DNA of 64,000 nt from Limnochorda sp. L945t (GCF_035593305.1 NZ_CP141615.1:2635722-2699721); one strand, 5' to 3'. Counted from the first letter of the stretch, positions 12,009 to 28,904 are shown. A program made the numbers and translations. Notes: a model not told the origin generated them from the letters alone.

Positions 12009-12212
12009 CGAGTGGACGCAGGTTCCGATAGCCTCCTTCGTCGCGCACTTGCGGACGGCGCCGCCGTGTATACACCCGGGTGCGGCAGGGGTGGGAAGTT
12101 CGACCTCGAATCCGGCCCGACAAAACCTCGCGCAGGTGTGGGGTCTTGGGGAGAGGTCTCGCATGATTAAAACCTTGCCAACCGGCGCCTGCGCGTGAAG
12201 GAGGCGAGGACG

Positions 12213-13478
12213 GTGCGGCTCGTCAACCGGATCCTGCTCGGCCTCGTCGTCGGCGTCCTCGTGGGGTTGGTGCTCAACGGGGTAGCACAGGCCGGATGGG
12301 TCAAGGGGCTCGATGCGTACGTCCTCAACCCGTTGGGCCAGATCTTCCTGCGGCTCATCAAGATGCTCGTGGCGCCGCTCGTGCTGCTGTCCCTCATCGT
12401 GGGCACGGCCGGGATGGGCAACGCGCGTAAAGTGGGGCGGGTCGGCGCCAAGATCATCGCCATCTACATGATCACGACCGCCCTGGCCGTCATCCTCGGG
12501 CTCGTGCTGGCGGGGGTGTTGGCACCGGGCCGGGGCTATCAGGTGCCTGCCAGCTTCACGTTCGAGCCCAAGCCGGCTCCTTCCGTCGTCGACACGCTGC
12601 TCAACGTCATTCCAACCAACCCGTTCGAGGCGCTCATGAAAGGCGAGATGCTCCAGATCATCGTCTTCGCCATCCTGTTCGGGCTGGCGCTCACGGCACT
12701 CGGCGAACGGGCGAAAGGGCTCCTGCAGTTGTTGGAAGTGGCCAACGAAGCGGTCATGAAGCTCATCATGTGGGTCATGGAACTGGCCCCTTATGCGGTG
12801 TTCGCCCTGATGGCCCGCATGGTCATGGCGCAGGGTGCGGGCGTGCTCTTGCCGCTCGGGAAGTACATCGTCATCGTCTACGTGGGGTGCGTCCTGCACG
12901 CCGCCTGGCTCTACTCGCTCATCGTCGGGTGGCTCGGGCGCATCAGCCCCATCGAGTTCTTCAAGCGGGCGGCGCCGGCCATGGTGGTGGCGTTCACGAC
13001 GGCGTCGAGCAATGCCACGCTGCCGGTCACGATGCAGGTCAGCGAGCGCAACTTCGGGATCCGGCGGGAGATCGGAAGCTTCACATTGCCGCTCGGGGCG
13101 ACCGTCAACATGGACGGCACAGCGCTTTACCAGGGCGTGTCGGCGCTCTTCCTGGCACAGATCCTGGGAATCCCCCTGACGGTGTCGCAGATGGCCATCA
13201 TCGTGCTCTCGGCCACGCTGGCGTCCATCGGGACGGCGGGCGTACCGGGAGCAGGGGTCATCATGCTGGCGATGGTCCTGCAGTCGGTGGGGATCCCCGT
13301 GGAGGCCATCGGTATCATCATCGGCGTCGACCGGGTGGTCGACATGGTCCGCACCATGATGAATGTCACGGGCGACCTGGCTTGCACGACGGCCGTAGCC
13401 CGGAGCGAGGGGGCCATGGAGTTTCCAGCGACCATCGAGGTGACGACCGCCGGCGCACGGCAGGCCGTGGCGGGGTGA
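12213..13478 (+). CDS. Dicarboxylate/amino acid:cation symporter (DAACS family)
   Basis: A sodium- or proton-coupled importer of C4-dicarboxylates or acidic amino acids. The 421-residue protein is strongly hydrophobic, with the re-entrant loop 1 motif FTTASSNATLPVT, the NMDGTALYQG motif of helix 7, the loop 2 motif GTAGVPGAG, and DMVRTMMNVTGD of helix 8. The arginine in that last motif is the residue that reads the second carboxylate in aspartate and glutamate transporters. The GTG at 12213 is preferred because AAGGAGG lies eight bases ahead; a GTG at 12195 would place the site inside the gene. About 200 bases separate it from purD, with no terminator I can identify. Confidence 0.9.
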   Translation: MRLVNRILLGLVVGVLVGLVLNGVAQAGWVKGLDAYVLNPLGQIFLRLIKMLVAPLVLLSLIVGTAGMGNARKVGRVGAKIIAIYMITTALAVILGLVLAGVLAPGRGYQVPASFTFEPKPAPSVVDTLLNVIPTNPFEALMKGEMLQIIVFAILFGLALTALGERAKGLLQLLEVANEAVMKLIMWVMELAPYAVFALMARMVMAQGAGVLLPLGKYIVIVYVGCVLHAAWLYSLIVGWLGRISPIEFFKRAAPAMVVAFTTASSNATLPVTMQVSERNFGIRREIGSFTLPLGATVNMDGTALYQGVSALFLAQILGIPLTVSQMAIIVLSATLASIGTAGVPGAGVIMLAMVLQSVGIPVEAIGIIIGVDRVVDMVRTMMNVTGDLACTTAVARSEGAMEFPATIEVTTAGARQAVAG

Positions 13479-13545
13479 GCGCCGAAAGGGGGTCGACCGG
13501 GGCATCGCAAGCCCGGAGGAGGGCCTGTTCCACTCCCCAATCGCC

Positions 13546-14178
13546 TCAGACGGACGTGGAGAATCTCTGGAGCACAGCCTGCTTCAAGCGTTCTTCCGGG
13601 GAGTTGAACCGGCCCCGCCACAGCACGTCCCGGGCCCCGGAAACGGCCCGGACAGGGTCGACTTCCACGAAGCGAAGGGCATGGCGGTGGCAGATATCCA
13701 CGCACAGCCCGCATGCCGTGCACGAGGAGGGGTCATGGGAGAGGACGATTTCGCCATCCTCCTCGCGCCGCTCCAGAGCGCCCGTCGGGCAAAAGTAGGC
13801 GCACATCGTACACCCCGTGCAGGCTTTCGATGCTTCGATGGCCCCAAACGGGCCCTGACCCGCGGCGAGCCGGGGCCGTGAAGCCGGAAGAGCAGGCCCG
13901 GGCTCCGATCGGGCTCCGAACGACCGGAGGAAATGCAGGAGGAGGCGTCGCTTGGGCGGCATCCGAACCGGAAGCTGCCGAGCGCCGCCGCCGAACGCCG
14001 GCCTCGCATCGTCTCCTGGTTCTCCAGGCTCCCGCTCGGACGTATCGAAGGATGGCCGCGGTCGCGAGGTGCCCGGGCCGTTACCCGCCAGGATGGCCTC
14101 CCACCGGCGAACGGCCGCTCTGTCCGGCCTTCCGCGTCCGCTGCCGCCGGTCAGCCGGGTGAGAAGACCCGGCGGACC
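13546..14178 (-). pseudogene. C-terminal part of an iron-sulfur protein split by an IS element
   Basis: This 210-codon segment is the downstream half of the gene that starts at 16322. It has two classical [4Fe-4S] motifs, CTGCTMCAYFCPTGAL and CTACGLCVDICHRHAL, preceded by a long arginine/glycine-rich linker. Removing the insertion element and one copy of its target duplication joins base 15651 to 14178 in the same frame, restoring a 434-residue, four-cluster protein. The fragment has no good start of its own. It would probably be an electron-transfer partner of the oxidoreductase encoded just upstream. Confidence 0.85.
14172..14178. repeat. Target-site duplication, left copy
   Basis: GCGGACC directly abuts the element and is repeated at 15644-15650 on the other side. 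A possible eighth base differs (G on the left, A on the right). IS256-family elements usually give 8-9 base duplications. Confidence 0.8.
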
Positions 14179-14179
14179 G

Positions 14180-14209
14180 GAGATTGTCCCGAGGTTTGTG
14201 GAAAATGAA
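14180..14209. repeat. Left terminal inverted repeat of the IS256-family element
   Basis: The segment runs from GAGATTGTCCC to GTGGAAAATGAA. It matches the reverse complement of 15614-15643 at 22 of 30 positions by eye, with shared TTGTCCC and TGTGGAA blocks. Confidence 0.85.
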
Positions 14210-14277
14210 GTGGCGGCTCCGGGGCCCCTGTGGTAGAAGAGGGGCTGGCAAAACCCAGCGGATGGGAGGAGCCGCCG

Positions 14278-15591
14278 ATGCCAGCATATCACGTGGTCAG
14301 CCCGAATGGGAAGGTTCAGAAGGTCGACCGCCGGAAGGCTCGAAAGGTACCGTTTTTGCCCGAAAGCATCCAGCTTCCCCTGCGCCGGCTGGGGGAGCAG
14401 GTGAAGGGGGGCCTGACGGCGCTGGTGCTGCAGCTGGCTGTTGCGGCCCTCGGGGAGATGATGGAAGCCGAGCTGGCCGAGCGGGTCGGACCCAAGGGGC
14501 GGCATCGCCGGGAGCGTCCCGCCTACCGCCATGGCCAGGCAAAGGGCTGGGTGGTGGTGCTGGGCCGCAAGGTGAGCGTCCAGCGTCCTCGGGCCCGCTC
14601 CAAAGACCGCCAGGAGGTGGTGCTCGACACCTACCTGTGGGCCCAGCAGGAGGACAGCCTGACCGAAGCGGTGGTGGCCCGGCTGCTCCACGGGGTGTCG
14701 ACCCGGGGCTATCGGGAGACGCTGGACGGGACCGACGCGCTCCCGGGTAAGGGGGTCTCCCGAAGCCGGATCAGTGCCCGCTTCACCCAGACCATGGGTC
14801 GGCTGCTGGAGGAGCGCCTGACCCAGCGGCTCGATCAGGGGTCCATCGTCGCCTTGGTCGTCGATGGGGTGCGGGTGGGCGACTCCTCGGTGGTGGTGGC
14901 CTTGGGCATCGATGCCGACGGGCGCAAGCGGCTGTTGGGCTTGCGGGAAGGGGCGACGGAAAACGAAGCGGTGGTCAAGGGACTGCTGCAAGACCTGGTT
15001 GAGCGGGGTCTGTCCTCCGATCAGGGGCTGTTGGTGGTGATGGACGGGGCCAAGGCCTTGCGGGCCGCCGTCCGAGCCGTCTTCGGAAAGCAGGCCCTCG
15101 TCCAGCGGTGTCAGGTCCATAAGAAGGCGAACGTGCTGGACCACCTGCCGGAGTCGGCGAAGGCCTGGGTGGCCCGCAAGCTGGACCAGGCCTACGGGGA
15201 GCCGGACTACAGCGTCGCCAGGGAGGCCCTGGAGCGCCTGGCCGACCGGCTCGAGGTGGAGCACCCGGGGGCAGCGGACAGCCTGCGGGAGGGGTTGGAC
15301 GAAACCCTGACGCTGCACCGGCTGGGCATCCCGGGCCTGCTGCGGCTGTCGCTGGCCTCCACCAACACGGTGGAGTCGGCGCTGTCGGTGGTGCGCGCCA
15401 AGGCGGGGCGGGTGAAGCGCTGGCGTTCTGGTCAGCACGCCGAGCGGTGGGTGGGGATAGGGCTTCTGGCGGCTGAATCCCGCTTTCGGCGGATTCGCGG
15501 CTACCGCCTGATCCCCATGCTTCAGGCCGCTCTGCGCCGAGCCATCGGAGCCGAAGTGGCCATGAGCGAGCCTGTACTCGCTACCGGTTGA
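14278..15591 (+). CDS. IS256-family (Mutator-type) transposase
   Basis: The enzyme cuts and joins the ends of the surrounding element. The 437-residue protein has the DDE-type pattern of the family: an aspartate in LVVDGVRVGD, a second in LLVVMDGAKALR, the QRCQVHKKANVLDHL block, and the glutamate in STNTVESALSVVR. The ATG at 14278 has GGGAGG eight bases upstream. It appears complete and undamaged. It is not the same copy as the truncated IS256-like gene at 31.8 kb, whose sequence differs clearly (QRCRVHFVRNLL there). Confidence 0.93.
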   Translation: MPAYHVVSPNGKVQKVDRRKARKVPFLPESIQLPLRRLGEQVKGGLTALVLQLAVAALGEMMEAELAERVGPKGRHRRERPAYRHGQAKGWVVVLGRKVSVQRPRARSKDRQEVVLDTYLWAQQEDSLTEAVVARLLHGVSTRGYRETLDGTDALPGKGVSRSRISARFTQTMGRLLEERLTQRLDQGSIVALVVDGVRVGDSSVVVALGIDADGRKRLLGLREGATENEAVVKGLLQDLVERGLSSDQGLLVVMDGAKALRAAVRAVFGKQALVQRCQVHKKANVLDHLPESAKAWVARKLDQAYGEPDYSVAREALERLADRLEVEHPGAADSLREGLDETLTLHRLGIPGLLRLSLASTNTVESALSVVRAKAGRVKRWRSGQHAERWVGIGLLAAESRFRRIRGYRLIPMLQAALRRAIGAEVAMSEPVLATG

Positions 15592-15613
15592 AAAAAGGAT
15601 CCCGGAGGCGCTA

Positions 15614-15643
15614 TTCAAATTCCACATAACCTGGGACAACGTC
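15614..15643. repeat. Right terminal inverted repeat of the IS256-family element
   Basis: The reverse complement starts GACGTTGTCCC and pairs with the left end at 14180-14209. The repeated target bases GCGGACC follow immediately at 15644-15650. Confidence 0.85.
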
Positions 15644-15650
15644 GCGGACC

Positions 15651-16322
15651 ATCGGCCTGCCCTCTGGACCACGAGCCTGCCGGGCCGGTGGCTGACGCAG
15701 CAGCACGCTCTGTACCGCGGTCCTGCAGTGCGGGCATCCCCGGTAACGCCTGCTCGGAAAAACGGACCGCTGCTTCCATGCCCAGCGCGTCCAGCAGCGT
15801 GCGGGTGGTGGCGACCCGATCATTGGCAAGCTTGCGGCCCACCTCGTAGGTACATCGCTCGCAAAGTCCGTCGGACAGCACGACGTCACGGGCGCCGGCC
15901 GCCACGGCGCCCACCAGCAGCGACTCGTGAAGCCTGCCGAGGCAGTCCAACTCGACCAGCCCGGGATGCGAGCGCATCCGGCGGTGCTTCCGAAGAAGAA
16001 GCGAACAGGCGAAAACTACCTGCTCGCTACGTTGGGCGGCCCGCTCCAGGCCGGCCATGATGTCGGCATCACCGGGTCGCTTCGGCCCAAAGACGCCTGT
16101 CGGGCAGGCTGCCAGACAGAGGCCGCACTGGGCACAGCGCAGCGGCACCACCTTCAAGGCCGTGCCGATCTGGATGGCTCCGGTGGGGCAGAAATCCGCA
16201 CACCGCGTGCACCTGGCCTGCCGGTGCCGCACCCGCACGCACTGCTCCGGATGAACCTCGAAGTTATCCGTTTGAAGAGCTGCCAGCTCATCTGCCCACG
16301 GTTGAAAGCCCCGAACCGCCAT
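15651..16322 (-). pseudogene. N-terminal part of the IS-split iron-sulfur protein
   Basis: The first 224 codons of the gene interrupted at 15650. It contains CTRCADFCPTGAI and CAQCGLCLAACPTGV, two [4Fe-4S] motifs, then a domain with VFACSLLLRKH, LVELDCLGRLHESL and LSDGLCERCTYEVG. That domain has cysteines in positions resembling the MvhD/HdrA-linked electron-carrier domains, but this comparison is from memory and weak. It is the last gene of the minus-strand respiratory operon, 105 bases after the NrfD gene. Read-through into the element adds 11 foreign codons before a stop at 15615, so a truncated two-cluster protein may still be made. Confidence 0.85.
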
Positions 16323-16427
16323 GGCACCCCACCCTGAGAGGTGCGGGGCAGCCTGCGTGCCCTGGCAGGCAGGCTGCCCCGGAGACGTCGCCAGACCCTC
16401 AACCCTGCAAGGGCGGCAGGCGCTCCT

Positions 16428-17324
16428 TCACGGGATCACCGGCCGGGCCAGCCCCGCGGCCAGCACGCTGTAGCGCAGCACCACAGCTCCTACCAGCAGG
16501 CACACCGCCGCCACCGTCCCCCAAGGCACCAGGTTGCCAACGCCGCCGCCCGATCGGCTCGACCAGGCCAGCACCGACCAGACCAGCGGCACCACCAGCC
16601 CCAGACCCACCAGCCCCAGCCAGAAGGCCCACGCGTACCCCCCGCTTACCAGGTACGCCACCGAGGCTGCGGCCGTCAGCCCGGAGCCAGAGGCCACCAC
16701 CAGCACCGCGAGAAGCCCCAGGGCCTCCAGCCCCACCAGCACCGCCATGGCCCGCGCCAGCACCCCCATGGCCTCCTCGACTGCATCCGGTCGTCCGCCC
16801 GACCGCCGGCTGAGCTGCGCTGCCCCTACCAGCACCGCTACCCCCGCCGACAGACCCGCCACCACGAACAGCACCGGCCAAAGCGGGGTGTTCCAAAACG
16901 GCACCGCCTTTACCACGCCCACCAGCAGTCCCGGGTAGAGCATCACGCCCAGCGCGAATACCCCGTTGAGCCCCGCCAGCCAGCCTAGAACCACACCCTC
17001 GCGCCATGCGCGCAGTTGCCGGGCGAGGTGCACGGCCCCCAGCACCAAGAACAGGCTGACCAGCCACACCCCCACCGACATCACCGACGACCCGGGCCGG
17101 CTATAGCCTCGCCAGAAGCGCAGGGGCTCCCCCAGGTCCATCAGCAGGAGCAGCGCCCCCAACGCCACCAGCACCGGCCCCAGCACGATGCCCGTCCGAG
17201 CCAGCCACCCGTGCCGGCGGTCCGTCCACCCCAGCCACACGGCCATCAGGTAGGCGCCCGCCCCGGCGCCCCCCAGGAAGAAATCCCAGGCCACCAGCGG
17301 CCCCCATGTGCTCTGCAGGCCCAT
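16428..17324 (-). CDS. NrfD/PsrC-type membrane anchor subunit
   Basis: This 298-residue integral membrane protein has about eight hydrophobic helices. The first carries WDFFLGGAGAGAYL and the loop after the second carries DLGEPLRFWRGY, both typical of NrfD/PsrC subunits that pass electrons from quinol to an iron-sulfur subunit. It lies 18 bases after the ferredoxin subunit gene, giving the usual A-B-C order of complex iron-sulfur molybdoenzymes. It should exchange electrons with menaquinone in the membrane. Confidence 0.88.
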   Translation of the reverse strand: MGLQSTWGPLVAWDFFLGGAGAGAYLMAVWLGWTDRRHGWLARTGIVLGPVLVALGALLLLMDLGEPLRFWRGYSRPGSSVMSVGVWLVSLFLVLGAVHLARQLRAWREGVVLGWLAGLNGVFALGVMLYPGLLVGVVKAVPFWNTPLWPVLFVVAGLSAGVAVLVGAAQLSRRSGGRPDAVEEAMGVLARAMAVLVGLEALGLLAVLVVASGSGLTAAASVAYLVSGGYAWAFWLGLVGLGLVVPLVWSVLAWSSRSGGGVGNLVPWGTVAAVCLLVGAVVLRYSVLAAGLARPVIP

Positions 17325-17342
17325 CGCCCAAGCTCCTTTCCC

Positions 17343-17948
17343 TCACGCCGGCAGGTAGTAGACCGACGGGTTAGTGCCCAGCTCCGCCAGCAACTGGTAG
17401 CCATGCCGGCGGGCGATCAGCTTCGAAACCTCGCTGTTGGGGTCATCCAGGTCCCCGAAGGTGCGGGCCTTCGCCGGACAGGTCTGCACGCAGGCTGGCT
17501 CCTCCCCTCGTTCGATCCGATCCATGCAGAAGTTGCACTTCTCCACCACGCCGGCCTGGTGGTTGGCATGAGCGACCTTCTCGTAGGGAGTCGGCTCGAA
17601 ACCCGGGTAGTACGGCTGCAGGGACTCCACGAAGCTTCGGGCCCCGTACGGGCATGCTGCCACGCAGTACCGGCAGCCCATGCACCTGTCGGCATCTACG
17701 GCGACGATCCCGTCCGGCCGCTTGTAGCTGGCCCCCGTCGGACAGACCTGCACGCACGGCGCCTGCTCACAGTGCATGCACAGCATGGGCTGGTAGACGA
17801 CCTGAGTGTTCGGATATCGCCCCACCTCATGCACGAGCACCTTGCTCAAGAAGACCCCTGGAGGGGTTCCGTTCTTGACTTTGCAGAAGGCCGTACATGA
17901 TTGGCAGCCGATACATCTCGCCAGATCAATGACCATCCCGTATCTCAT
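17343..17948 (-). CDS. Four-cluster ferredoxin subunit (DmsB/PsrB type)
   Basis: The 201-residue protein carries four cysteine groups typical of DmsB, PsrB and NrfC: CIGCQSCTAFC near residue 12, CMHCEQAPCVQVCPTGA, CMGCRYCVAACPYGA, and CNFCMDRIERGEEPACVQTC. It would wire the catalytic subunit to the NrfD anchor through four [4Fe-4S] clusters. There is no signal peptide; such subunits are normally carried across the membrane with the TAT-signal partner. It follows the catalytic gene by 19 bases. Confidence 0.93.
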   Translation of the reverse strand: MRYGMVIDLARCIGCQSCTAFCKVKNGTPPGVFLSKVLVHEVGRYPNTQVVYQPMLCMHCEQAPCVQVCPTGASYKRPDGIVAVDADRCMGCRYCVAACPYGARSFVESLQPYYPGFEPTPYEKVAHANHQAGVVEKCNFCMDRIERGEEPACVQTCPAKARTFGDLDDPNSEVSKLIARRHGYQLLAELGTNPSVYYLPA

Positions 17949-17967
17949 GGGTAGCTACCTCCCCTGC

Positions 17968-20661
17968 TCAGGCCGCATAGATTTTCACTTTCACTGCCGT
18001 GTCTAGCCCGCCTGTCATGGGTTCGAACGTACCGTCGTCGATGGGAACCAGCCTGTTGAAATTGGTCCCTTCCAGAGCCATGGGGTTCAGGCCGGAAGAG
18101 CTCCGCTTCAGTCCGCCCGGGAACCCGACGACTTCGGGATGGATCGCTTCGGTTAGCCGTACCCGGGCCTGCGTGCGTCCGTATGGAGACTCTACCCAAA
18201 CCACTTGGCCGTCCTGGAGGCCTTTCGCCTTCGCGGTGGATCGGTTCAAGAGCACCACGAACTGGTACGGATCAACGTGCCTGGCGATGTCGAAGAGCAG
18301 CGCGTTGCTCTGCACCCAGCTCAGATCGAACATGTATGGCGGCGTTCGCCACACGACTGCATAGAGATCGAACTCCGCCGGTGCGGCCGCAGCAGTGCTG
18401 GGCCTCCATACGGGTAGAGCCTGATAGTAGGACAGGAAGTCCTCCAAGTCCCATCCGGGCATGGTGATACCCAGCTTGCCGAAATTCTCCCGAATGGTGT
18501 GGGCCGTGCGCTTCAGCACTTCTCGGTACAAGACGTAACGAGTCTTGCCCATGGGATTGTAATGGTAGTTATAGCTTTCCCTGGCAGGCGCCTTCTCCAG
18601 CTCGAATCCGTGCTGCTCCCAGAAGTCATAACCTTTGCCCGTGACCGACTTCAGACGGCGCTCCAGCAGCTCCACGTAGTTGTAGCGCTTGTTTGGGTCT
18701 ATCCGGTATTCCGGCTTCAGCTGCCGGTTGATCATTCCGTTGAGCCCTCTCTCACCGGTCAGCACGCCGGCCGCTTCCGCCAGGTCCAGGATGATATCGT
18801 CAGCGTTCTTCGTATCGTATAGAGGCTTCACAGCAGGAATGTTCACCATCACGCCCGTCAAGCCGATGTTGCCACTGTCCACGATCTTCGGCCTCATCTC
18901 GGGGCTGTGCGGCTCGTTGATGTTGGCGAAGTGTCGCTCCAAAACGGCGTGCTCCGGAAGGATGACATCCGACAGCATTGCATTCTCGCCCATCGTCGCC
19001 TCGATGGATACGATGAAAGGAATCTTGAGGAGAGCGGATTCGATCCTTTCCGGAGTACCGCCCTTGTTGAAGTGGCTGCCTCCGTAGAAGATGGCCAGCT
19101 CCAGCGGGTAATCGAGGCCGTACTTGGACGGATCCTCGAGGGCTTTGATCACGTTGAACCCGATGTTGTGCCGGTGCGGATACAGCGAGGCCAGATCGTA
19201 CGAGTCAGGGGGGAACTTCCACGGAAACGGACCCGGCTGCAACCCCGGTCCCCTGTACAGGGCCACGGTACCATCCTCGTCTGGCCTATTGAACGGCCCG
19301 AACCCGGATCCGAGCCGGCCTCCGGGGACATCCATCGCTCCCACGAGCTCACAGAGCACGACTGCTGCCCAGGAAGACAGGTGGCCGTTCTTGCGGTTCG
19401 TGACCCCTCGGTTGACGTTGATGGCGACGGGGCGCAGCGGGAACGTTTCGCCGTCGATGGTGATGGTGGCTCCGATGCTCGCCTGGTCCACGAATTCATT
19501 GGCGAGGCGACGAATCGTCGCGGCCGGCACCGTCGTGATCCCCTCGGCCCATTCCGGGGTCTTGTCTTGCACGTGGTCCATCAATAGCTGGAAGGCCGGG
19601 CGAGCCGCAACGCCGCGCACGTCGTACGTCCCGGTGAGAGCCGGATCCTTCAGGCCGGGGTCATCGAATGGCTTGGGGCGACCGTCCGCCATGTCCCAAA
19701 CGAGCGGCTTGTTGCTCGTCCGGTCCCGCACGTACAGTTCATCCGGCCCGATCAGATACGGAGCATTGCTCCGGTGCTTCAGGAACTCGATATCGTACTC
19801 CTTTCGTTCGAACAGGATGACGTGCATCATCCCTAGAAAGAAAGCCAGGTCGGTTCCCGGCCTGATGGGGATCCACTCGTCGGCCTTGGCTGCCTCCGGC
19901 GAAAGCCTCGGGTCGACGACGACGAAACGCATCCCGCGCTCCCTGGCCCGGAAGAAGGGTCCCTGCGTCCCCTGCGCCTCTCCGAAGTTACCGCCCGTGC
20001 CACGACCTACGGCGATGAGGAGCCGGCAGTATTCGACATCGGCCCGGTCCATCATCGTGCCGTGGCCGAAGAAGTTGTGGAAGTGCGTAGAGCATATGGA
20101 GCCGCTGGTAGTGATCCCATTCGGCGTCCCGAGCGCCCCTGCAAGGAGTCGCGCGTATTGCGAGCCATCCGCACCGAACCCGGTGAAGATCGCTATCCTC
20201 CTGGGATCCCGGGCGAGGATGTCGCGGATGCGTTTCCCCACCAGATCGAGGGCCTCCTCCCAGGATGCCTCCTTCCATTGGGGATCCACGTTGAGCCCCT
20301 TCTTTGGATTAGTTCTCACCAGGGGCTTCTTCAATCGGTAGGGGTCATAAAGGTTCATGATGAGGCCGTGGCCCCGAATACAGAGGGCGCCCTGGTTCAC
20401 GTCGCAATCCTTGGCACCCTCGACCAGGGTGACGATCCCGTTTTGCACATGCACCCGCGTGGCGCAAAAATACGTGTGGCACATGCGACAGACTCCGTAC
20501 TTGACTTCCTCACTCTGTGGCTGCACCGGAGCACCCGTGGCTGCGGAGACGATGCGCCTGTAGGTACCACCACCCAGGGTGCCCGCGACCGCAGCCAACG
20601 CTCCCGTCGCCTTGACGAAATTCCGTCTCGAGACGCGATGAGTCACAGTAGCCATCGTCAA
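17968..20661 (-). CDS. TAT-exported molybdopterin oxidoreductase, catalytic subunit
   Basis: The 897-residue protein of the DMSO-reductase superfamily has a twin-arginine signal (SRRNFVKATGALAAVAG) at residues 10-27. A cluster motif of form Cx2Cx4Cx27C spans residues 58-94, and the likely molybdenum ligand is the cysteine in TSGSICSTHFHNF. WIPIRPGTDLAFFLGMMHVI and PGGRLGSGFGPF are family blocks. Substrate is not settled: polysulfide, thiosulfate, tetrathionate or arsenate reductases all share this layout. The TTG at 20661 has a GGGAGGG site nine bases upstream; an ATG at 20655 is the alternative. It is preceded by its chaperone gene and followed by B and C subunits. Confidence 0.92.
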   Translation of the reverse strand: MTMATVTHRVSRRNFVKATGALAAVAGTLGGGTYRRIVSAATGAPVQPQSEEVKYGVCRMCHTYFCATRVHVQNGIVTLVEGAKDCDVNQGALCIRGHGLIMNLYDPYRLKKPLVRTNPKKGLNVDPQWKEASWEEALDLVGKRIRDILARDPRRIAIFTGFGADGSQYARLLAGALGTPNGITTSGSICSTHFHNFFGHGTMMDRADVEYCRLLIAVGRGTGGNFGEAQGTQGPFFRARERGMRFVVVDPRLSPEAAKADEWIPIRPGTDLAFFLGMMHVILFERKEYDIEFLKHRSNAPYLIGPDELYVRDRTSNKPLVWDMADGRPKPFDDPGLKDPALTGTYDVRGVAARPAFQLLMDHVQDKTPEWAEGITTVPAATIRRLANEFVDQASIGATITIDGETFPLRPVAINVNRGVTNRKNGHLSSWAAVVLCELVGAMDVPGGRLGSGFGPFNRPDEDGTVALYRGPGLQPGPFPWKFPPDSYDLASLYPHRHNIGFNVIKALEDPSKYGLDYPLELAIFYGGSHFNKGGTPERIESALLKIPFIVSIEATMGENAMLSDVILPEHAVLERHFANINEPHSPEMRPKIVDSGNIGLTGVMVNIPAVKPLYDTKNADDIILDLAEAAGVLTGERGLNGMINRQLKPEYRIDPNKRYNYVELLERRLKSVTGKGYDFWEQHGFELEKAPARESYNYHYNPMGKTRYVLYREVLKRTAHTIRENFGKLGITMPGWDLEDFLSYYQALPVWRPSTAAAAPAEFDLYAVVWRTPPYMFDLSWVQSNALLFDIARHVDPYQFVVLLNRSTAKAKGLQDGQVVWVESPYGRTQARVRLTEAIHPEVVGFPGGLKRSSSGLNPMALEGTNFNRLVPIDDGTFEPMTGGLDTAVKVKIYAA

Positions 20662-20749
20662 TGTATCCGGCCCTCCCTTGCTCTACCGGCACGCCGGCCG
20701 CCGATTACGTCGTCTCCCCGTATTGCCCTTACGAATGCACTCCGAACCA

Positions 20750-21949
20750 TCAGCGTGTCCGTTCCTTCAGGCCACCCCGGTTGGACGTCTGGGTCTCACC
20801 CGAGCTTCGCAACAACTCCCTCTCGAGCGGAAGAGACTCCACCTCTTGCCCGACGAACCCTTTGGTGATCAGGGCGATGCCCCGGTAGAAATCCAGCTTC
20901 GCCTCTCTTTCCATGAGTTCGCAAAAACGCGGTATCCAGCGCGCCGCGTGCGCGCTCAAGAATCCCTCCTGCATCTCCAGAGCCTCGATGGCCTTGTCGG
21001 CATCCCCCGCCCTCCATGCCTCAGCCTCGCGTTCCGCCAGGTACCGCAGGAAATCAAGCTCGTAGCCGATGAAGTCCGGCTGGTCGCGGGCCGCCTCCGG
21101 CAGGCCAACGCCGGCCTCGGCGTACGCTTTGACCACATCCACGGTGGCCTGCATCCGGGGCTGGTGGTCAGAGCCCACATAGACCGACTCATAGGGGGGT
21201 GGCGGCCCATACCCTGGCCGGATACCGCGCAAGAGCCGGGTCCTGTCCACCGCCAGCGCGGTCTTGAGCCCCTCCACCTCCTGTCCCTGCACAGCCCGCA
21301 CGAACTCCGCCACCAGCCGCGCGCCTTCCCGTACCTCGGGCCAGATCCCTTCCTGCGCCGAAAGACCCTCGAGTTCCGAGACCAGGGCCGGGTCACGGAG
21401 CTTCGCGGCGAACCCGTCGTCTGGAAGTTGGTTGTAAACCGAGGCGAGAAACCCGTAAATGCGGCTGCGGTTCTCGGCCAGCTTGGCCAGCTCGTCATGT
21501 GTGGGCGGGACGCTGTCTGCTGCGCCGCACCCCGCCCCTGTACCGCACTCGTCGACACCGTTTGTCCTGCCGGCACCGTTACCCTTGAGGCTCTCCATCA
21601 GGTCTGATACCCCTCCCACGACGCGCCGACGCCCACGGAAAACGAGCAGCGTATTGTCCCGTAAATTGAGCCCAACCACGGTGGCCGACAGGTGCTCCTT
21701 CATCACCCGGGCAGCAACTTGGGCGGGGTCGACTCTGGAATCGGTGCAATCCACCACGAGGCAATCCGCGCCCGTCTTACGCGCGCGTTCGAGGGCCTGC
21801 TCCACGTCGGACTCTTGGGCCACGACCTCGATGCCGGAGGCCTCCGCAAGCAGGCGTTCGAGGCCCTTGCGGAAAAGGGCGCGCTTTGAACAAATGATAA
21901 CCCGTACCAGGCGGACTCGCCTCTTCCCCCGCCGACGCGCCCATGCCAA
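20750..21949 (-). CDS. Pseudo-receiver domain fused to a TorD-family chaperone
   Basis: Residues 12-125 resemble a NarL-type receiver: LFRKGLERLLAEASGIEVV parallels LFRKGLAALFNRRPGFVVV in the regulator at 22123-22899. The acidic pair that should bind magnesium is replaced (IICSKRALF instead of LLVDDHVLF), though an aspartate remains in LVVDCTDS. Residues about 150-395 are an all-helical TorD/DmsD-like domain (NRSRIYGFLASVYNQLPDD; PDFIGYELDFLRYLAERE), the kind that binds TAT signals and guards cofactor loading of molybdoenzymes. There is no DNA-binding domain. The start is a TTG and is uncertain. A stop-to-start gap of 88 bases separates it from the oxidoreductase gene it presumably serves. 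Confidence 0.85.
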   Translation of the reverse strand: MAWARRRGKRRVRLVRVIICSKRALFRKGLERLLAEASGIEVVAQESDVEQALERARKTGADCLVVDCTDSRVDPAQVAARVMKEHLSATVVGLNLRDNTLLVFRGRRRVVGGVSDLMESLKGNGAGRTNGVDECGTGAGCGAADSVPPTHDELAKLAENRSRIYGFLASVYNQLPDDGFAAKLRDPALVSELEGLSAQEGIWPEVREGARLVAEFVRAVQGQEVEGLKTALAVDRTRLLRGIRPGYGPPPPYESVYVGSDHQPRMQATVDVVKAYAEAGVGLPEAARDQPDFIGYELDFLRYLAEREAEAWRAGDADKAIEALEMQEGFLSAHAARWIPRFCELMEREAKLDFYRGIALITKGFVGQEVESLPLERELLRSSGETQTSNRGGLKERTR

Positions 21950-22062
21950 TCAAGGACCTTGTAGCATTTCCGGGGCCCGGCCACCACACCGCACCGGCGG
22001 AGGTGGACAGAAAAAGGGAGCTACTCTGGGATAGCCCCCTTGAACCAAGGAACCGGAGCCGC

Positions 22063-22110
22063 CTAACCCGATCGGGCTAGCCCATGTCCGAACCGGGTAC
22101 CCGAACGGGT
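22063..22110 (-). promoter_or_regulatory. Palindromic candidate operators upstream of the oxidoreductase operon
   Basis: CTAACCCGATCGGGCTAG at 22063-22080 is an 18-base palindrome with one mismatched pair. ACCCGAACGGGT at 22099-22110 is a second inverted repeat with five-base arms, and a GGGTACCC palindrome overlaps its left arm. They fill the 173-base gap between the regulator gene and the chaperone fusion, where the operon promoter should lie. Binding by the adjacent NarL-type regulator is an inference. Confidence 0.5.
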
Positions 22111-22122
22111 CGACCCTGTCTC

Positions 22123-22899
22123 CTATGAGGCCGGCCCGGGGGTCCGGCTTGCTCTCCCGTCTCCTTCCCCCTCGTTGACCAGCCCCTTTTGCACCGCGTG
22201 CACCGCTAACTGGATGCGGTTGGTCAGGTGCAGTTTCTCTAAAATGTTGCGCAGATGGATCTTCACGGTGTTTTCTGCAATCCCGAGCCCTGCGGCAATC
22301 TCCTTGTTCGTCAGTCCCCGCGCTACGAGCCGAAGGACCTCCGACTCCCGTGGCGTCAGCGCCTCGGGCGGAGGCTGGGTCTGGTCGGGGCCTGCTTCGT
22401 CGCGCCGGCGCAGCTCGTCCAGGATCCGCGCCGCGATGGGCCCGGAAAGCCGGGGCTTCCCCTGGTGCACCTCCTCGATGACCTCATAGAGCTCCTCCGG
22501 CTCCGCGTCTTTGAGGAGGTAGCCATCCGCGCCGCACTTGATGGCGGCGAAAAGGTCCCGGTCGTCGTCGGAAACCGTGAGCATCACGACGTGGACGCGG
22601 GGCGTGTGGCGCTTGATGACGCGGGTCGCCTCGATCCCGCTCACGGTGGGCAGCCCGATATCCATCAGGATGACGTCCGGCATGGTCTGACTGGCGAGCG
22701 CAATCGCCTCGCTGCCATCCCCCGCCTCCCCCACGACCACGAAACCGGGACGGCGGTTGAAGAGGGCCGCGAGGCCCTTGCGGAACAACACGTGGTCATC
22801 CACCAGGAGCACTTTGACGGGTTGTGCAGGTGATACCGCCTCTGCCGCCCCGGTGGGAGCGGGGATTCCCGCGCGCTCCGCTGAATCCATGCCCATCAT
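22123..22899 (-). CDS. NarL/FixJ-family response regulator
   Basis: The 258-residue protein has an intact receiver: VDDHVLF acidic pair, phosphoacceptor aspartate in VILMDIGLP, the conserved threonine in MLTVSDD and lysine in LLKDAEP. The C-terminal LuxR-type helix-turn-helix reads LTPRESEVLRLVARGLTNKE, then AENTVKIHLRNILEKL. The ATG at 22899 overlaps the kinase stop as ATGA; ATGs at 22896 and 22890 are also in frame. It should be phosphorylated by the heme-bearing kinase and control the operon downstream. Confidence 0.95.
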   Translation of the reverse strand: MMGMDSAERAGIPAPTGAAEAVSPAQPVKVLLVDDHVLFRKGLAALFNRRPGFVVVGEAGDGSEAIALASQTMPDVILMDIGLPTVSGIEATRVIKRHTPRVHVVMLTVSDDDRDLFAAIKCGADGYLLKDAEPEELYEVIEEVHQGKPRLSGPIAARILDELRRRDEAGPDQTQPPPEALTPRESEVLRLVARGLTNKEIAAGLGIAENTVKIHLRNILEKLHLTNRIQLAVHAVQKGLVNEGEGDGRASRTPGPAS

Positions 22900-24452
22900 C
22901 CTTTCCCCGCTCCGGGAACGAGCATGACGATGCGGGTTCCCTCGCGCGGCCGGGAATGCACTTCGAGCCGCCCGCCGATGCCTTCCAGCCGCTCCCGCAT
23001 GATCCGTAGCCCGAACCCGTGGCCGCTGTTCCCTGCAGTTCGGGCCGGATCGAAGCCCCGTCCGTCGTCTTCGACGGTGATGCGGAGGCCTCCCTCGCTC
23101 GGGATCTCGAAAACCACCCGGACGAGACGGGCGGCTGCGTGGCGGCCCGCGTTGGAAAGCGCTTCCTGAATCGCCCTGAGCAACTCTGCCTCCACCTCGG
23201 GCGGGAGTGGAGGCACAACCCCGCCTCGCTCCACCAGGTCGACCTCCACGCCGTACCGGGTGCGGCAGGCGTCCAGGCACTCCCGGACGGCCGCCACCAG
23301 GCCCCTGGACGGCGTGGCAGACAGGCGCAGGTTGAAGATGGTCTCCCTCAGCCCGAGGTGTGCACTCTGTACCAGCTCTTTCATCTCCCATAACTCGGCC
23401 CGGGCCTCGTCACGCCGCCCGGCCGCGAGATGACCCTCCAGGACCGCCAGGTCGAGCTTGACACAGGAGAGCACCTGGGCGAGCCGGTCGTGGAGTTCCC
23501 GAGCCAGGCGGTCACGCTCCTGCAGGGCTGCCACCCGCCGGCTTTCCCCCTCCCTCTCCTCGAGCAAGGTCTTCAACCGCCGCCGCATGAATTCCAGTTC
23601 CCGCGCCAGCAAACCCACCTCGTCGTCGCCCGCAAGGGGCACTTCGTGCTCGAGGTCTCCCGCCCCGATCGTTCGAGCCGCCAGGGCGAGTCGCCGCACC
23701 GGCCGCGTCACCATTCCGTCGAGGGCAAACACCAGGAGCCCGCCCAGCAACAGGACCGATATCCCTGCGGCCGCCGCCAGCGGAGGAAGCCCGGCGCCGA
23801 CCTGGGCCAGAAGGCCCTCTACCGAGCTTTCCACCATGAGCACCCCAAGTACGGGTGCCCCGGGGTCGTGGCACGACCGGCAGGCCGGCGCGTTGAGGAT
23901 GGGCTTGACGCTCACCACCCGGTCGTGGCGCTGCCCTGTGGGTACCAGCACCGACCCGGCTCCCGGTGGTCCCGGCGTGCCATGGCACTCACGACAGCCC
24001 GCGTCCGTCTTGTCCAGGATCGTGCCCACCTCGTCCGGTACCGAGCTGAGCCTGACGGCCCCGCCGGTGTCCAGCACGCGAACCTTTTCAAGGTTACCTT
24101 CGCTCACCAGAGACTCTACGATACGGGCGGCCATGGCGCGGTCGTTGCGGAGCATGGCATGCTCGAGGCTGGCCTCGACCAGGCGCGCGACGGTCTCCGC
24201 CGAGCGCAGATTGACCCGCAGGAGCTCGCGGCGGTGAACATAGCCGAGGAGGACCAAAGACAAAAGGGCTCCAACCAAGCAAGTTGAAATCGTAATGGTG
24301 AGAATCCGCAACAGCAAGACCGGCCGCCGGCTCGCATCGGTCAGGGACGAGGCCAATGCCCGGTACGACGCGACACCCGGCGTGCCGGCCTGCCAGCGTA
24401 AGCGCCCCTCGTTCCCGCCTCCCGGAGAGCCGGGGGTCTTCCGCAGCCCCAT
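22896..24452 (-). CDS. Sensor histidine kinase with two c-type heme motifs (NarX-like layout)
   Basis: The 518-residue kinase has a first membrane helix at about 47-69 and a second at 222-243. The region between them, predicted outside the cytoplasm, contains two CxxCH heme-attachment motifs, CRECH at 153-157 and CRSCH at 191-195. A HAMP linker follows (244-298), then a HisKA_3 dimerisation helix with His321 in LARELHDRLAQ, and an ATPase domain with EALSNAGRHA and EDDGRGFD. A sensor with covalent hemes suggests redox or ligand (for example NO or acceptor) sensing. The ATG at 24452 is chosen for its GAGGACGG site; longer starts add only a proline-rich unmatched stretch. Coupled to the regulator by ATGA overlap. 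Confidence 0.9.
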   Translation of the reverse strand: MGLRKTPGSPGGGNEGRLRWQAGTPGVASYRALASSLTDASRRPVLLLRILTITISTCLVGALLSLVLLGYVHRRELLRVNLRSAETVARLVEASLEHAMLRNDRAMAARIVESLVSEGNLEKVRVLDTGGAVRLSSVPDEVGTILDKTDAGCRECHGTPGPPGAGSVLVPTGQRHDRVVSVKPILNAPACRSCHDPGAPVLGVLMVESSVEGLLAQVGAGLPPLAAAAGISVLLLGGLLVFALDGMVTRPVRRLALAARTIGAGDLEHEVPLAGDDEVGLLARELEFMRRRLKTLLEEREGESRRVAALQERDRLARELHDRLAQVLSCVKLDLAVLEGHLAAGRRDEARAELWEMKELVQSAHLGLRETIFNLRLSATPSRGLVAAVRECLDACRTRYGVEVDLVERGGVVPPLPPEVEAELLRAIQEALSNAGRHAAARLVRVVFEIPSEGGLRITVEDDGRGFDPARTAGNSGHGFGLRIMRERLEGIGGRLEVHSRPREGTRIVMLVPGAGKG

Positions 24453-24775
24453 TGCGACCGTCCTCTGGCACAGGGGCTTCAACAGAGTCGGAACCAATCC
24501 TCTCGAGCCTTGTCCCCTGCGCGGCTTCGCCCTCCGTGACCCCGGGGTCGCCCCGCAGGGGCAGTGCCGACTCCGATTCCGGCAAGATGATGCAAGCGGG
24601 TGGAGGGAACAAACGTAAGGGGACGAATTACGTTTCCCACCAACACACAGGCTTCCCACAAGGGGCGTGAGACAGTGTCATCATGAGCTCATCGGCCTGG
24701 TCGAGCGCCCGGAGGAATCTTTCCGGGACACGTGAACTCGTTTCTCCCACACGGGACCGGTAGGAGGCGAGATCG
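24453..24775. promoter_or_regulatory. Divergent regulatory region between the kinase and dctP
   Basis: A 323-base gap serves both the kinase (leftward) and the TRAP operon (rightward). AAACGTAA at 24611-24618 and TTACGTTT at 24628-24635 form a perfect inverted repeat with a nine-base spacer. ATGAGCTCAT at 24683-24692 is a ten-base palindrome. AGGAGG eight bases before 24776 is the dctP ribosome site. I could not fix convincing -35/-10 pairs. Confidence 0.5.
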
Positions 24776-25801
24776 ATGAAGCGGTGGGTTTCCCTGCTCG
24801 CAGGCGTCCTTTCAGTAGTGCTCTTCATCGCACTCTTGTCCCCGGCGGCGGCAGATGCCGCGGCGGCCGCGTTGAAGGCGGAGTACCGGCTGACCCACAA
24901 CACCGCGGACACCACGACGTGGCACAAGGGGGCGGTCCGCTTCGCGGAGCTGGTGCGCGAACGGACAGGCGGCAAGGTGAACATCCGGGTCTACCCTAAC
25001 GCCATCCTGACGGGCGGCGACCAGATGCGCCAGGCGGACATGGCGGCCCGGGGCGTGATCGACTTCGTGCTTACCTCCACGCTCAACATTACGCCGCTCA
25101 TCCCGCAGTTCGCCGTCGTGTCGCTCCCCTACCTCTTCAACGGGTATGCCGACGTGGACAGGGCGTTCTCCGGGCCTGCCGGCAAGCGACTGGACGAGAT
25201 CATGGCCAGGTACGGCCTGGTCAACCTCGCCTGGGGCGAAAACGGCTTTCGCGAGCTGACCAACTCTGTGCGCCCCATCCGCACGCCGGCCGACTTGAAG
25301 GGCCTGAAGATCCGTGTGGCGGTGCCCATCCAGGTGGACATCCTCAACGCGCTCGGGGCGAACGCCATCCAGATGCAGTGGGGCGAAGTCTACACGGCGC
25401 TCCAGCAAAAGGTCATCGACGGCCAGGAGAACCCCATCGGCGCCGTCATCATTCCCCAGCGAGTCTACGAGGTCCAGAAGTACATGACGGTCTGGCACTA
25501 CTCCTACGACGCGCTCTTCCTGGCGGTAGGCAAGCCCACGTGGGACAGCTTCCCGCCCGACATCCAGCAGGTCATCCGCCAGGCGGCGAAAGAGGCCATG
25601 CAGTATCAGGTCGAGATCAGCAGGCAGGATACCGCAAGCGGGGTCGATTTTCTGCGGAAGCAGGGGATGGAGGTCTACGAGCCCACGCCCGCGGAGATCC
25701 AGCCGTTCCGGGATGCCGCGAAGCCGGCCTTTGACAAGTGGGCGGCGCGGGTGGGTCCCGACCTCGTCGCCTTGTTCGAACAGGCACGGGAAGCCCGATG
25801 A
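24776..25801 (+). CDS. dctP: TRAP transporter solute-binding protein DctP
   Basis: An exported binding protein that delivers a carboxylate solute to the DctQM membrane complex. Of 341 residues, the first 26 form a signal peptide (KRW then a hydrophobic run ending AAADA). The mature part has YRLTHNTADTTTWHKGA, VRVYPN-type strands, and LKGLKIRV with the arginine that usually binds the substrate carboxyl group. The family is DctP/SiaP-like (Pfam DctP). The stop overlaps dctQ as ATGA. Substrate is not determined. Confidence 0.93.
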   Translation: MKRWVSLLAGVLSVVLFIALLSPAAADAAAAALKAEYRLTHNTADTTTWHKGAVRFAELVRERTGGKVNIRVYPNAILTGGDQMRQADMAARGVIDFVLTSTLNITPLIPQFAVVSLPYLFNGYADVDRAFSGPAGKRLDEIMARYGLVNLAWGENGFRELTNSVRPIRTPADLKGLKIRVAVPIQVDILNALGANAIQMQWGEVYTALQQKVIDGQENPIGAVIIPQRVYEVQKYMTVWHYSYDALFLAVGKPTWDSFPPDIQQVIRQAAKEAMQYQVEISRQDTASGVDFLRKQGMEVYEPTPAEIQPFRDAAKPAFDKWAARVGPDLVALFEQAREAR

Positions 25802-26382
25802 TCAGCCGGGTCTCGGCCGAGCAGGGCGTTGCCAGGGGTAGCGCCAGGGCGGCCCCCCGCCCCCACGCCGCGACGCTTCTCCTGGCGCGGGCGCTCGACC
25901 ACCTGGAGGAAGGCGTGGTTGCGGGCCTGCTGGGCTTCATGGTCATCCTTGCCTTTGCCAACGTGGTGGTGCGGTACCTGACGACCTCGTCGCTCGCCTT
26001 CTCGGAAGAGCTGCTCATCAACCTTTTCGTGTGGCTCTCGCTATTCGGAGCAGCCATTGCGGTTCGCAGGAAGGCGCACGCCGCCGTGACGATGCTGGTG
26101 GACCGGCTGCCCGCGCCCTTTCGGCCGGCGGTTCGGGTCGCCGCGTACGGATTGTCGCTTCTCGCCACGGGCCTGATGGTGATGCAGGGGTGGGCACTCG
26201 TGAGTTACCAGCGCGCGATGGGCGTCGAGACGTACTCCATGTCCCTCCCGATGTGGTGGTTCTCGCTCGGCATCCCGGTCGGCGGCGTCGTCATCGCCAT
26301 CCGCATCGTCGAGGCAGCCTGGAAGGAGCTGCGGGACGGTGCGGCACACCAGGGCGGCGCGGGAGGGGAGAGGTCGTCATGA
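25798..26382 (+). CDS. dctQ: TRAP transporter small permease DctQ
   Basis: The 194-residue protein has four hydrophobic helices after a cytoplasmic N-terminus. The motif FSEELLINLFVWLSLFGAAI near the second helix and RRKAHAAVTMLVDRLP after it are typical of the DctQ subunit, which clasps the large permease. It starts within the dctP stop codon and ends within the dctM start codon, so the three are translationally coupled. Confidence 0.92.
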   Translation: MISRVSAEQGVARGSARAAPRPHAATLLLARALDHLEEGVVAGLLGFMVILAFANVVVRYLTTSSLAFSEELLINLFVWLSLFGAAIAVRRKAHAAVTMLVDRLPAPFRPAVRVAAYGLSLLATGLMVMQGWALVSYQRAMGVETYSMSLPMWWFSLGIPVGGVVIAIRIVEAAWKELRDGAAHQGGAGGERSS

Positions 26383-27674
26383 GCCTGGTCGGCCTGGATC
26401 CCCTTCTGGTGCTCCTGGGCAGCTTCGGCCTCCTCGTCGCCTTGCAGGTGCCCATCGCATTCGCTCTTGGCTTGAGCGGGGCGGCAGTGCTGTACACCAC
26501 GCAGATGGGATTCAGGATGCTGGCGGACCTCATGTTCGCCAACATCGCCAAGTTCTCGCTGCTGGCGATCCCCTTCTTCATCCTGGCGGGCGTCATCATG
26601 GGCGAGACGGGCATCGCAGAGCGCATCGTGCGGTTCGTCAAGCTGCTCGTGGGACAGGCGGTAGGTGGCCTTGCGGTGGTCACGGTGCTCGTCGGGATGT
26701 TTTGGGGGGCGGTGAGCGGATCGGGGCCGGCGTCGGTGGCCGCCCTGGGCCCCATCTTGATCCCGGCGATGGGCAAGGAGGGCTACGAGCGGTCATTCGC
26801 AACGTCCATCACGTGCATGGCGGCGGCCCTCGCCATCGTGATCCCTCCCAGCATCGCGCTCGTGGTCTATGGGGTGCTCGCGGAGACGTCCATTGCCCGG
26901 CTTTTCCTGGCCGGTATCGTGCCGGGCGTCCTGGTGGGGCTCTTCCTCATCGGCTACGCGGTATGGCTGTCGCGCAAACACGGATGGCGGGGAGGCACGC
27001 GGGGCTCCTGGCGGGATCTGTGGATAGCGGGAAAGGACGCTTTCTGGGGTCTACTCACCCCGGCCATCATCCTGGGCGGGGTGTACGGCGGGGTCGTAAC
27101 CCCCACTGAGGCGGCCGTGGTTGCGGTCATGTGGGGGCTCTTCGTAGGCGGCGTCATTTACCGCACTCTCACCGTGGCCAAACTCTACCGCATTCTGGTC
27201 GAAGCCGCCACATCGTCGGCGGTGGTCATGCTGGTGGTCGCCTTCGCCGGCGTCTTCGCATGGGTGATGGCCACTCAGGGTATCGTGGACCGCATGGCCC
27301 AGGCGCTTCTCTCGATCGCGTCCAACCCGGTGACGGCGCTTCTCGTGATCAACCTGCTGCTGCTCATCCTGGGGATGCTGATGGACGCCATCTCTATCAT
27401 GTACATCACCCTTCCCATCCTGCTCCCGGTCGCACGGCACTTCGGGTGGGATCCGGTCTGGTTCGGGCTGGTGGTCACCGTCAACCTCGCCATCGGGCTC
27501 GTCACGCCGCCCGTAGGGATTAATCTGTACGTCGGCGCCCATATCGCGGGCGTTCCCTTCGACCGCCTGGCGTCTCGGGTGTGGCCCATCGTGGCCGTTT
27601 CCGTGGCGGCCTTGCTGCTGCTCACGTACGTACCGGAAATCACGTTGTGGCTGCCGCGACTCGTGATGGGGTAA
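26379..27674 (+). CDS. dctM: TRAP transporter large permease DctM
   Basis: The 431-residue permease has about twelve helices and is the transport channel, driven by an ion gradient. LLAIPFFILAGVIMGETGIA near residue 65, GMFWGAVSGSGPASVAALG near residue 108, and LVTPPVGINLYV near residue 375 are the family signatures. A short-chain dehydrogenase remnant begins four bases after its stop, which marks an old recombination joint. Confidence 0.95.
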   Translation: MSLVGLDPLLVLLGSFGLLVALQVPIAFALGLSGAAVLYTTQMGFRMLADLMFANIAKFSLLAIPFFILAGVIMGETGIAERIVRFVKLLVGQAVGGLAVVTVLVGMFWGAVSGSGPASVAALGPILIPAMGKEGYERSFATSITCMAAALAIVIPPSIALVVYGVLAETSIARLFLAGIVPGVLVGLFLIGYAVWLSRKHGWRGGTRGSWRDLWIAGKDAFWGLLTPAIILGGVYGGVVTPTEAAVVAVMWGLFVGGVIYRTLTVAKLYRILVEAATSSAVVMLVVAFAGVFAWVMATQGIVDRMAQALLSIASNPVTALLVINLLLLILGMLMDAISIMYITLPILLPVARHFGWDPVWFGLVVTVNLAIGLVTPPVGINLYVGAHIAGVPFDRLASRVWPIVAVSVAALLLLTYVPEITLWLPRLVMG

Positions 27675-27677
27675 TGA

Positions 27678-27767
27678 GGATGGGCAGTACTGTTCCTGGC
27701 CAGCAACCGCTCCAACTATGTAACCGGCCACACGCTGGACGTCAACGGCGGCAGCTACATGCGCTGA
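27678..27767 (+). pseudogene. C-terminal remnant of a short-chain dehydrogenase/reductase
   Basis: Only about 29 codons survive, reading AVLFLASNRSNYVTGHTLDV followed by NGGSYMR and a stop. This is the unmistakable end of a classical SDR (YVTGH..DVNGG). There is no start codon and the frame is closed by a TGA at 27675, right behind dctM. The rest of the gene has been deleted. The tail overlaps the end of the opposite-strand transporter gene by 13 bases. Confidence 0.8.
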
Positions 27768-28819: not shown

Positions 28820-28904
28820 GACCAACTCTCGCCTCCGCCTCCTCCGGGCCTTTCCCGAGCGGTGGGCCTTTGCGGCGAGGGTTCGGGGCGTCGCCGCCTT
28901 TCCC

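Follow-up and report, generated by a model that had tools for sequence, protein, structure and literature searches.

A pseudo-receiver-TorD fusion chaperone in an accessory, partly decayed molybdoenzyme module with a predicted heme-Cache sensor kinase in Limnochorda sp. L945t

INTRODUCTION

Psr/Phs-type CISM complexes combine a TAT-exported catalytic subunit carrying an Fe4S4 motif, a four-cluster ferredoxin, an NrfD anchor, and a TorD-type chaperone. Maturation proteins of the TorD/DmsD/NarJ group share a PF02613 domain and a DmsD-like fold, and their genes adjoin those of the enzymes. In NarX/NarQ-NarL systems, a kinase with HAMP, HisKA_3, and HATPase domains is paired with a LuxR-type NarL regulator beside anaerobic respiration genes.

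Two further domain classes bear on the locus described here. The sCache_heme sensors (DUF3365/Tll0287; GSU0935 and GSU0582) have an extracytoplasmic single Cache-like domain with a CxxCH motif just before the last strand, feeding a HAMP domain and a signaling module; 3B42 and 3B47, solved heme-c sensors of Geobacter chemoreceptors, belong to the same class. The class has already been described, and a heme-Cache member fused to signaling modules bound NO stably and not O2, which are NO-sensor properties (PMC12889525). Versions with two heme motifs have been published from Geobacter and Anaeromyxobacter (Gsu0591, Gsu0599, Adeh_2011, and Adeh_3383) (PMC3831638). Bacterial pseudo-receiver (PsR) domains, the second class, are receiver-like and can lack the DD, T, and K residues while keeping the Asp. 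Here we describe a module whose genes are mostly of these known kinds; the unusual part is a fusion of a receiver-like domain to TorD.

RESULTS

Gene order and transcription units.

We analyzed a 64,000-nucleotide stretch (the window; GC content, 69.8%) of the 3.31-Mb, single-contig genome of a subsurface bacterium. The minus strand carries, between positions 13546 and 24452, genes for a sensor kinase, a NarL-type regulator, a receiver-TorD protein, a TAT molybdoenzyme, a ferredoxin subunit, an NrfD protein, and an Hdr/FlpD-like Fe-S protein, in that order (Table 1). The original prediction, made from the DNA alone, was of seven consecutive minus-strand genes forming one unit. Order, strand, and gene types were as predicted, but only six of the seven genes are intact, the last being split by an IS256-family element. 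The single unit is doubtful. The 173-bp gap separating the regulator and chaperone genes contains a terminator-like hairpin with a U-run (-16.3 kcal/mol; z, -1.65), suggesting that transcription of the kinase-regulator pair is at least partly separate from that of the enzyme genes. No sigma-70-like promoter was found in the region, a search for NarL-type palindromes placed none of its matches upstream of the operon genes (18 matches versus 10.6 expected), and scans of the DNA gave no Rfam match and no tRNA.

Table 1. Features of the module and its surroundings (positions in the window).
Feature	Position	Strand	Basis or remark
Hdr/FlpD-like multi-cluster Fe-S protein gene, split	13546..16322	-	Family match and relatives
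IS256-family element, 1.46 kb	14184..15639	+ (transposase, 14230-15591)	Between imperfect inverted repeats
NrfD-type membrane anchor/quinol subunit	16428..17324	-	Family match
Ferredoxin-type subunit	17343..17948	-	16 cysteines for four [4Fe-4S] clusters
TAT-exported molybdopterin catalytic subunit, PsrA/PhsA-like CISM	17968..20661	-	Fe4S4 and molybdopterin domains
Pseudo-receiver-TorD fusion chaperone, 399 aa	20750..21949	-	Residues ~12-125 receiver-like, ~150-375 TorD
Terminator-like hairpin with U-run	22014..22041	-	Between regulator and chaperone genes
NarL-type response regulator	22123..22848	-	Receiver residues intact (DD, D, T, K), LuxR-type HTH
Sensor histidine kinase	22896..24452	-	Membrane segment, heme-c sCache-like periplasmic domain, membrane segment, HAMP, HisKA_3, HATPase
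Kinase CxxCH motifs	23982-23996 (extra, first) and 23868-23882 (canonical, second)	-	Between two membrane segments
Divergent TRAP transporter	24776..27674	+	DctP 24776-25801, DctQ 25738-26382, DctM to 27674

The chaperone begins with a degenerate NarL-type receiver.

The fusion of a pseudo-receiver to TorD, as originally called, is genuine, with both domains in one frame. The TorD half scores 78.8 bits against Pfam PF02613 (cutoff, 22.2), and its predicted model, with pLDDT mostly above 80 to 90, has structural matches to DmsD, YcdY, and TtrD (Foldseek 3efp_A and 9m26_C). The receiver half matches Pfam HMMs weakly (17.8 to 21.0 bits; cutoff, 30.2), while a profile built from three fusion members matches NarL-type receivers (3EUL, 9.7e-7; 1A04, 6.8e-4). 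This half is conserved in frame in a Chloroflexi fusion (L120), and its predicted element order is b1-a1-a2-b3-a3-b4-b5-a5 with b4 and b5 adjacent, at low confidence (pLDDT about 40 to 60).

A comparison with eight regulators taken from loci of this type shows the same losses in each of the three fusions: both Mg-binding acids, the Thr/Ser, the Lys, and the helix-4 segment are gone, and the Asp remains. At the phosphorylation-site positions, the window protein has S/K for DD and N for T, retains D, and has lost K by deletion. Judged by homology, a degenerate NarL-type receiver makes up the N-terminal 115 residues, and it falls under the published definition of a pseudo-receiver, in which one or more of the DD/D/T/K residues are missing (PMC12632262). 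Ordinary aspartyl phosphorylation of this half is very unlikely. The protein differs from known PsR domains in that its output partner is a chaperone; neither TorD nor chaperone occurs as a word in the review that gives the definition. It differs from TorD/DmsD/NarJ proteins in that a degenerate NarL-type receiver precedes TorD, and no such fusion appears in the searched passages of a NarJ-family survey (PMC4464133).

The fusion is rare among TorD proteins.

The fusion was found in three genomes, two from the order Limnochordales (the window and a Limnochorda-like genome, G289) and one from Chloroflexi. The G289 gene (L025:9038-10079) has two single-base frameshifts, due to decay or sequencing error, in an operon that is otherwise intact. 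That operon also contains a different molybdoenzyme and a second TorD. In the Chloroflexi MAG (L120), an intact 358-aa fusion lies directly upstream of a 40%-identical molybdoenzyme, a ferredoxin, and NrfD. No further fusion was found in 300 host-phylum, 73 host-class, or 300 further Chloroflexota genomes, and a contig scan of genomes with the window fusion protein alone as the query gave no match. An alignment-based genome scan returned 33 TorD loci, of which a single one is fused and the other 32 are unfused. TorD proteins recognized by GPPPPY/DRTRL patterns, a scan that can miss distant copies, adjoin the window's molybdoenzyme family in most loci, in Bacteria and Archaea. No description of a receiver-TorD fusion was found in open-access full text, which is not proof of absence; as far as we found, the fusion is rare and undescribed.

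In the TorD tree, the Chloroflexi fusion stands apart from the Limnochordales pair, with weak support near the pair (0.48 to 0.75). The evidence on a single ancestral fusion is divided: the tree separates the Chloroflexi copy, yet the helix-4 deletion is common to all three. Two ordinary NarL-type regulators in another genome (G362) were considered as stand-alone relatives of the pseudo-receiver and were rejected, as neither has the helix-4 deletion. Separately, in Adlercreutzia equolifaciens, whose genome shows 20 TorD-like matches, a TorD (47% identical), a molybdoenzyme (33% identical), and a ferredoxin (66% identical) adjoin one another (L102:10001-14192).

One explanation of the fusion places the chaperone in the signaling circuit: the pseudo-receiver would bind the NarL regulator or the kinase, and free chaperone, with no apo-enzyme left to mature, would damp or boost operon transcription. 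The fused domain is NarL-type and keeps the receiver core, with the phosphorylation chemistry gone except for the Asp, and G289 has kept its regulator and heme kinase next to the fusion despite the different molybdoenzyme. However, in nearly all genomes found, this enzyme family is served by unfused TorD; fusions are very rare, and the receiver half has lost helix 4, which usually belongs to the output face. We consider this explanation decidedly unlikely. More doubtful still is the specific proposal that the maturation state feeds back on the regulator of the enzyme genes through a phosphorylation-dead NarL receiver on the TorD chaperone, although a link between signaling and maturation is possible and makes a fair hypothesis. 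We favor a receiver half that acts as a docking or dimerization surface.

The layout recurs in part in other genomes.

Conservation of the neighborhood, proposed at the outset as a test, was found by half. G289 keeps the regulator, the heme kinase, and receiver-TorD beside its different molybdoenzyme, and L120 has receiver-TorD with a molybdoenzyme of the window enzyme's family, ferredoxin, and NrfD on a contig that starts 436 bp upstream, hiding any kinase; on the other side, a 97%-identical genome lacks everything (see below).

A NarXL-type pair with a CISM and TorD recurs at L027, L028, L030, L039, L042, L043, and L127, most of which also encode an Hdr-like protein; none of their kinases contains CxxCH, and in L027, L028, L039, and L042 a further gene (315 to 348 aa) precedes the kinase. 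The claim that no described system has this layout holds for the receiver-TorD fusion but not for the NarXL-type pair, CISM, and TorD. The window variant has a heme sensor swapped in and a pseudo-receiver fused to the chaperone, on an otherwise recurring layout.

The kinase has a heme-c Cache-like sensor domain.

Both CxxCH motifs predicted for the extracytoplasmic part of the kinase lie between its two membrane segments; the start codon is uncertain (the frame is open from 24659). The sensor domain matches the heme-c sensors 3B42 (7.5e-6 with the single sequence, 2.6e-7 with a profile) and 3B47 (0.0016 and 1.3e-5), and its second motif (CRSCH) aligns with the CQSCH heme site of both, before the last strand of the Cache-like domain. 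Two Pfam families fall below their cutoffs on the kinase: PF11845 (Tll0287/sCache_heme; 10.4 versus 24.1 bits) and PF21563 (heme MCP sensor; 24.1 versus 27). A single-sequence fold model of the domain was too poor for use (pLDDT, 54.7). The first, extra CxxCH is missing from the three closest homologues, namely the order-mate kinase in G289, a same-genome paralogue, and a Chloroflexota kinase. From these alignments, it is well supported that the kinase bears heme, and it is plausible that it binds two.

Among 339 host-phylum genomes, the sensor domain was limited to the host, which has two copies, and a single order-mate, apart from a marginal match in G179; among 301 Chloroflexota genomes, it was found in one, with a single CxxCH. 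The second heme-Cache kinase of the host (L075:9117-11081; G000:C1:529167-529757 region) has one CxxCH, a long linker, and a HisKA_3-like core.

The kinase core has NarQ as its best NCBIfam match (4.8e-36, below the equivalog cutoff). The NarQ and NarX models cover the C-terminal half only; the sensor half matches heme-c domains instead, so that a heme-Cache sensor stands where NarX/NarQ kinases have a nitrate-binding helical sensor. Compared with known sCache_heme sensors, the window domain is fused to a NarX-type HisKA_3 kinase, has the additional upstream CxxCH, and scores below the PF11845 cutoff. The regulator gene beside the kinase was correctly called: its best NCBIfam match is NarL (2e-57, below the equivalog cutoff), the nearest family.

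The suggestion that the kinase reads redox or acceptor state through heme gains from homology to solved heme-c Cache domains, but the domain class was already known, and with one heme or two the kinase is not new in kind. It could instead be a nitric oxide sensor that does not follow the enzyme's own acceptor, with the operon induced by nitrosative or denitrifying conditions. The NO binding reported for a signaling-fused heme-Cache domain (PMC12889525) is in line with this, as are the NO and N2O reductases encoded by the likely host (PMC11456536), but the window kinase is a distant member of the class with an extra heme motif that could serve redox sensing. We hold dedicated NO sensing to be tenable although less probable than the broader reading, in which the domain would respond to redox state or to a heme ligand.

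The molybdoenzyme belongs near PsrA/PhsA.

The TAT molybdoenzyme and its ferredoxin and NrfD subunits were all confirmed. The TAT_signal Pfam match is below cutoff (18.5 versus 22.7), and an SRRNFVKA motif is visible in the catalytic subunit. In a tree, this subunit falls in a large, widespread clade near PsrA/PhsA. It differs from Psr/Phs CISM enzymes in that the clade has no assigned function and its scores are far below every NCBIfam equivalog cutoff (PhsA, 199 of 694 bits), as are those of five relatives. The L945T genome description assigns a Psr/Phs-family molybdoenzyme and reports growth with elemental sulfur (PMC11456536); the window enzyme is probably the one meant, because the catalytic subunit query has no other match in the host genome at E 1e-20. 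The ferredoxin passes the NCBIfam DsrO cutoff (214.9 versus 200), with no other Dsr gene in the operon, and automatic annotation may call it DsrO wrongly.

Relatives in archaea, Aquificaceae, Thermodesulfobacteria, and others lie beside a ferredoxin, a small diheme cytochrome, and TorD, and in several host-phylum genomes the neighbors of relatives are catabolic genes, with a TRAP transporter in one case. Because these neighborhoods differ, respiratory cytochromes in some and catabolic genes in others, the substrate cannot be fixed from sequence. Instead of sulfur or tetrathionate, the enzyme may use an organic compound that the divergent TRAP transporter brings close to it. The TRAP genes are missing together with the operon in a close relative, a TRAP solute receptor and permeases flank a related molybdoenzyme at L072, and other relatives sit among catabolic genes. 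Against this stand the Psr/Phs assignment and sulfur growth in the genome description and the small diheme cytochromes of the archaeal and Aquificaceae relatives, as expected of a respiratory complex. An organic substrate is in our judgment somewhat unlikely; we prefer a respiratory PsrA/PhsA-like complex.

The module is accessory and partly decayed.

The predicted second multi-cluster protein is an Hdr/FlpD-like gene cut in two, as shown by six relatives with an intact protein of 368 to 457 aa, each of which aligns to both sides of the insert. The inserted transposase matches NCBIfam transpos_IS256 (226 bits; cutoff, 150), the terminal repeats are imperfect and 26 nt long (14184-14209 and 15614-15639), and gcggacc, noted by eye at both element ends, resembles an imperfect target duplication.

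A genome 97% identical on both sides (G354; L099, G354:C8:280000-299900) lacks window positions 13482-24687 and 24770-27604, a segment of ~14 kb that includes the TRAP genes. The remnants 24688-24769 (82 bp) and 27605-27674 (70 bp) are the ends of the TRAP block, and their joining to each other in G354 points to loss of the TRAP genes by deletion. A 2-oxoacid dehydrogenase E2-like gene, recognized by eye, takes the operon's place there. GC content over the molybdoenzyme gene is 59 to 63%, compared with 69.8% for the window and 72 to 75% in the left flank at 8 to 12 kb. This low GC content and the missing segment in G354 fit a horizontally gained, unstable module. The variable block is flanked by an SDF-family dicarboxylate symporter gene on the left (12195-13478) and has an SBF-type symporter gene (27755-28987) near its right end.

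The broken last gene and the two frameshifts in the Limnochorda-like copy leave room for decay, and the module may be a nonfunctional relic that the species is losing, as the IS256 insertion, the complete absence from a 97%-identical genome, and the frameshifted G289 fusion gene would suggest. But the other six reading frames are open, the catalytic motifs are present, and in many operons encoding enzymes of this family no Hdr-like protein was detected. We regard a relic as unlikely and treat the module as accessory and partly decayed.

DISCUSSION

With moderate confidence, we propose an accessory respiratory operon in which a heme-sensor two-component pair controls a chaperone and a molybdoenzyme, with the receiver half of the chaperone as a docking or dimerization surface. 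On the outer side of the membrane, the heme-c Cache sensor of the NarX-like kinase would detect redox state or a heme ligand (NO, for example), and the kinase would phosphorylate the NarL-type regulator. The regulator would most likely switch on the downstream unit of TorD-type chaperone, TAT molybdoenzyme, four-cluster ferredoxin, and NrfD, and the PsrA/PhsA-like complex would link the quinone pool to an external substrate by electron transfer. Maturation of the catalytic subunit would fall to the TorD half. The receiver half, in which ordinary aspartyl phosphorylation is not expected, is most likely a protein-docking or dimerization surface. The insertion element has cost the operon the Hdr-like Fe-S protein present in relatives. 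The sequence itself establishes the anatomy, the homologies, the residue losses, the gene disruption, and the variability between strains; the signal, the target of regulation, the substrate, and what the receiver half does are inferred from these.

Apart from the fusion, the module gives the published heme-Cache sensors one more member, here tied to a defined respiratory operon. The part worth following up is the receiver-TorD fusion. Pseudo-receivers are common and their working is largely obscure; here the attachment of a regulator domain to a maturation factor offers a small case, which the intact Chloroflexi version makes testable. We found no report in the literature of signaling-domain control of molybdoenzyme chaperones. 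Maturation feedback, if true, would add to both the known outputs of pseudo-receivers and the known modes of molybdoenzyme control.
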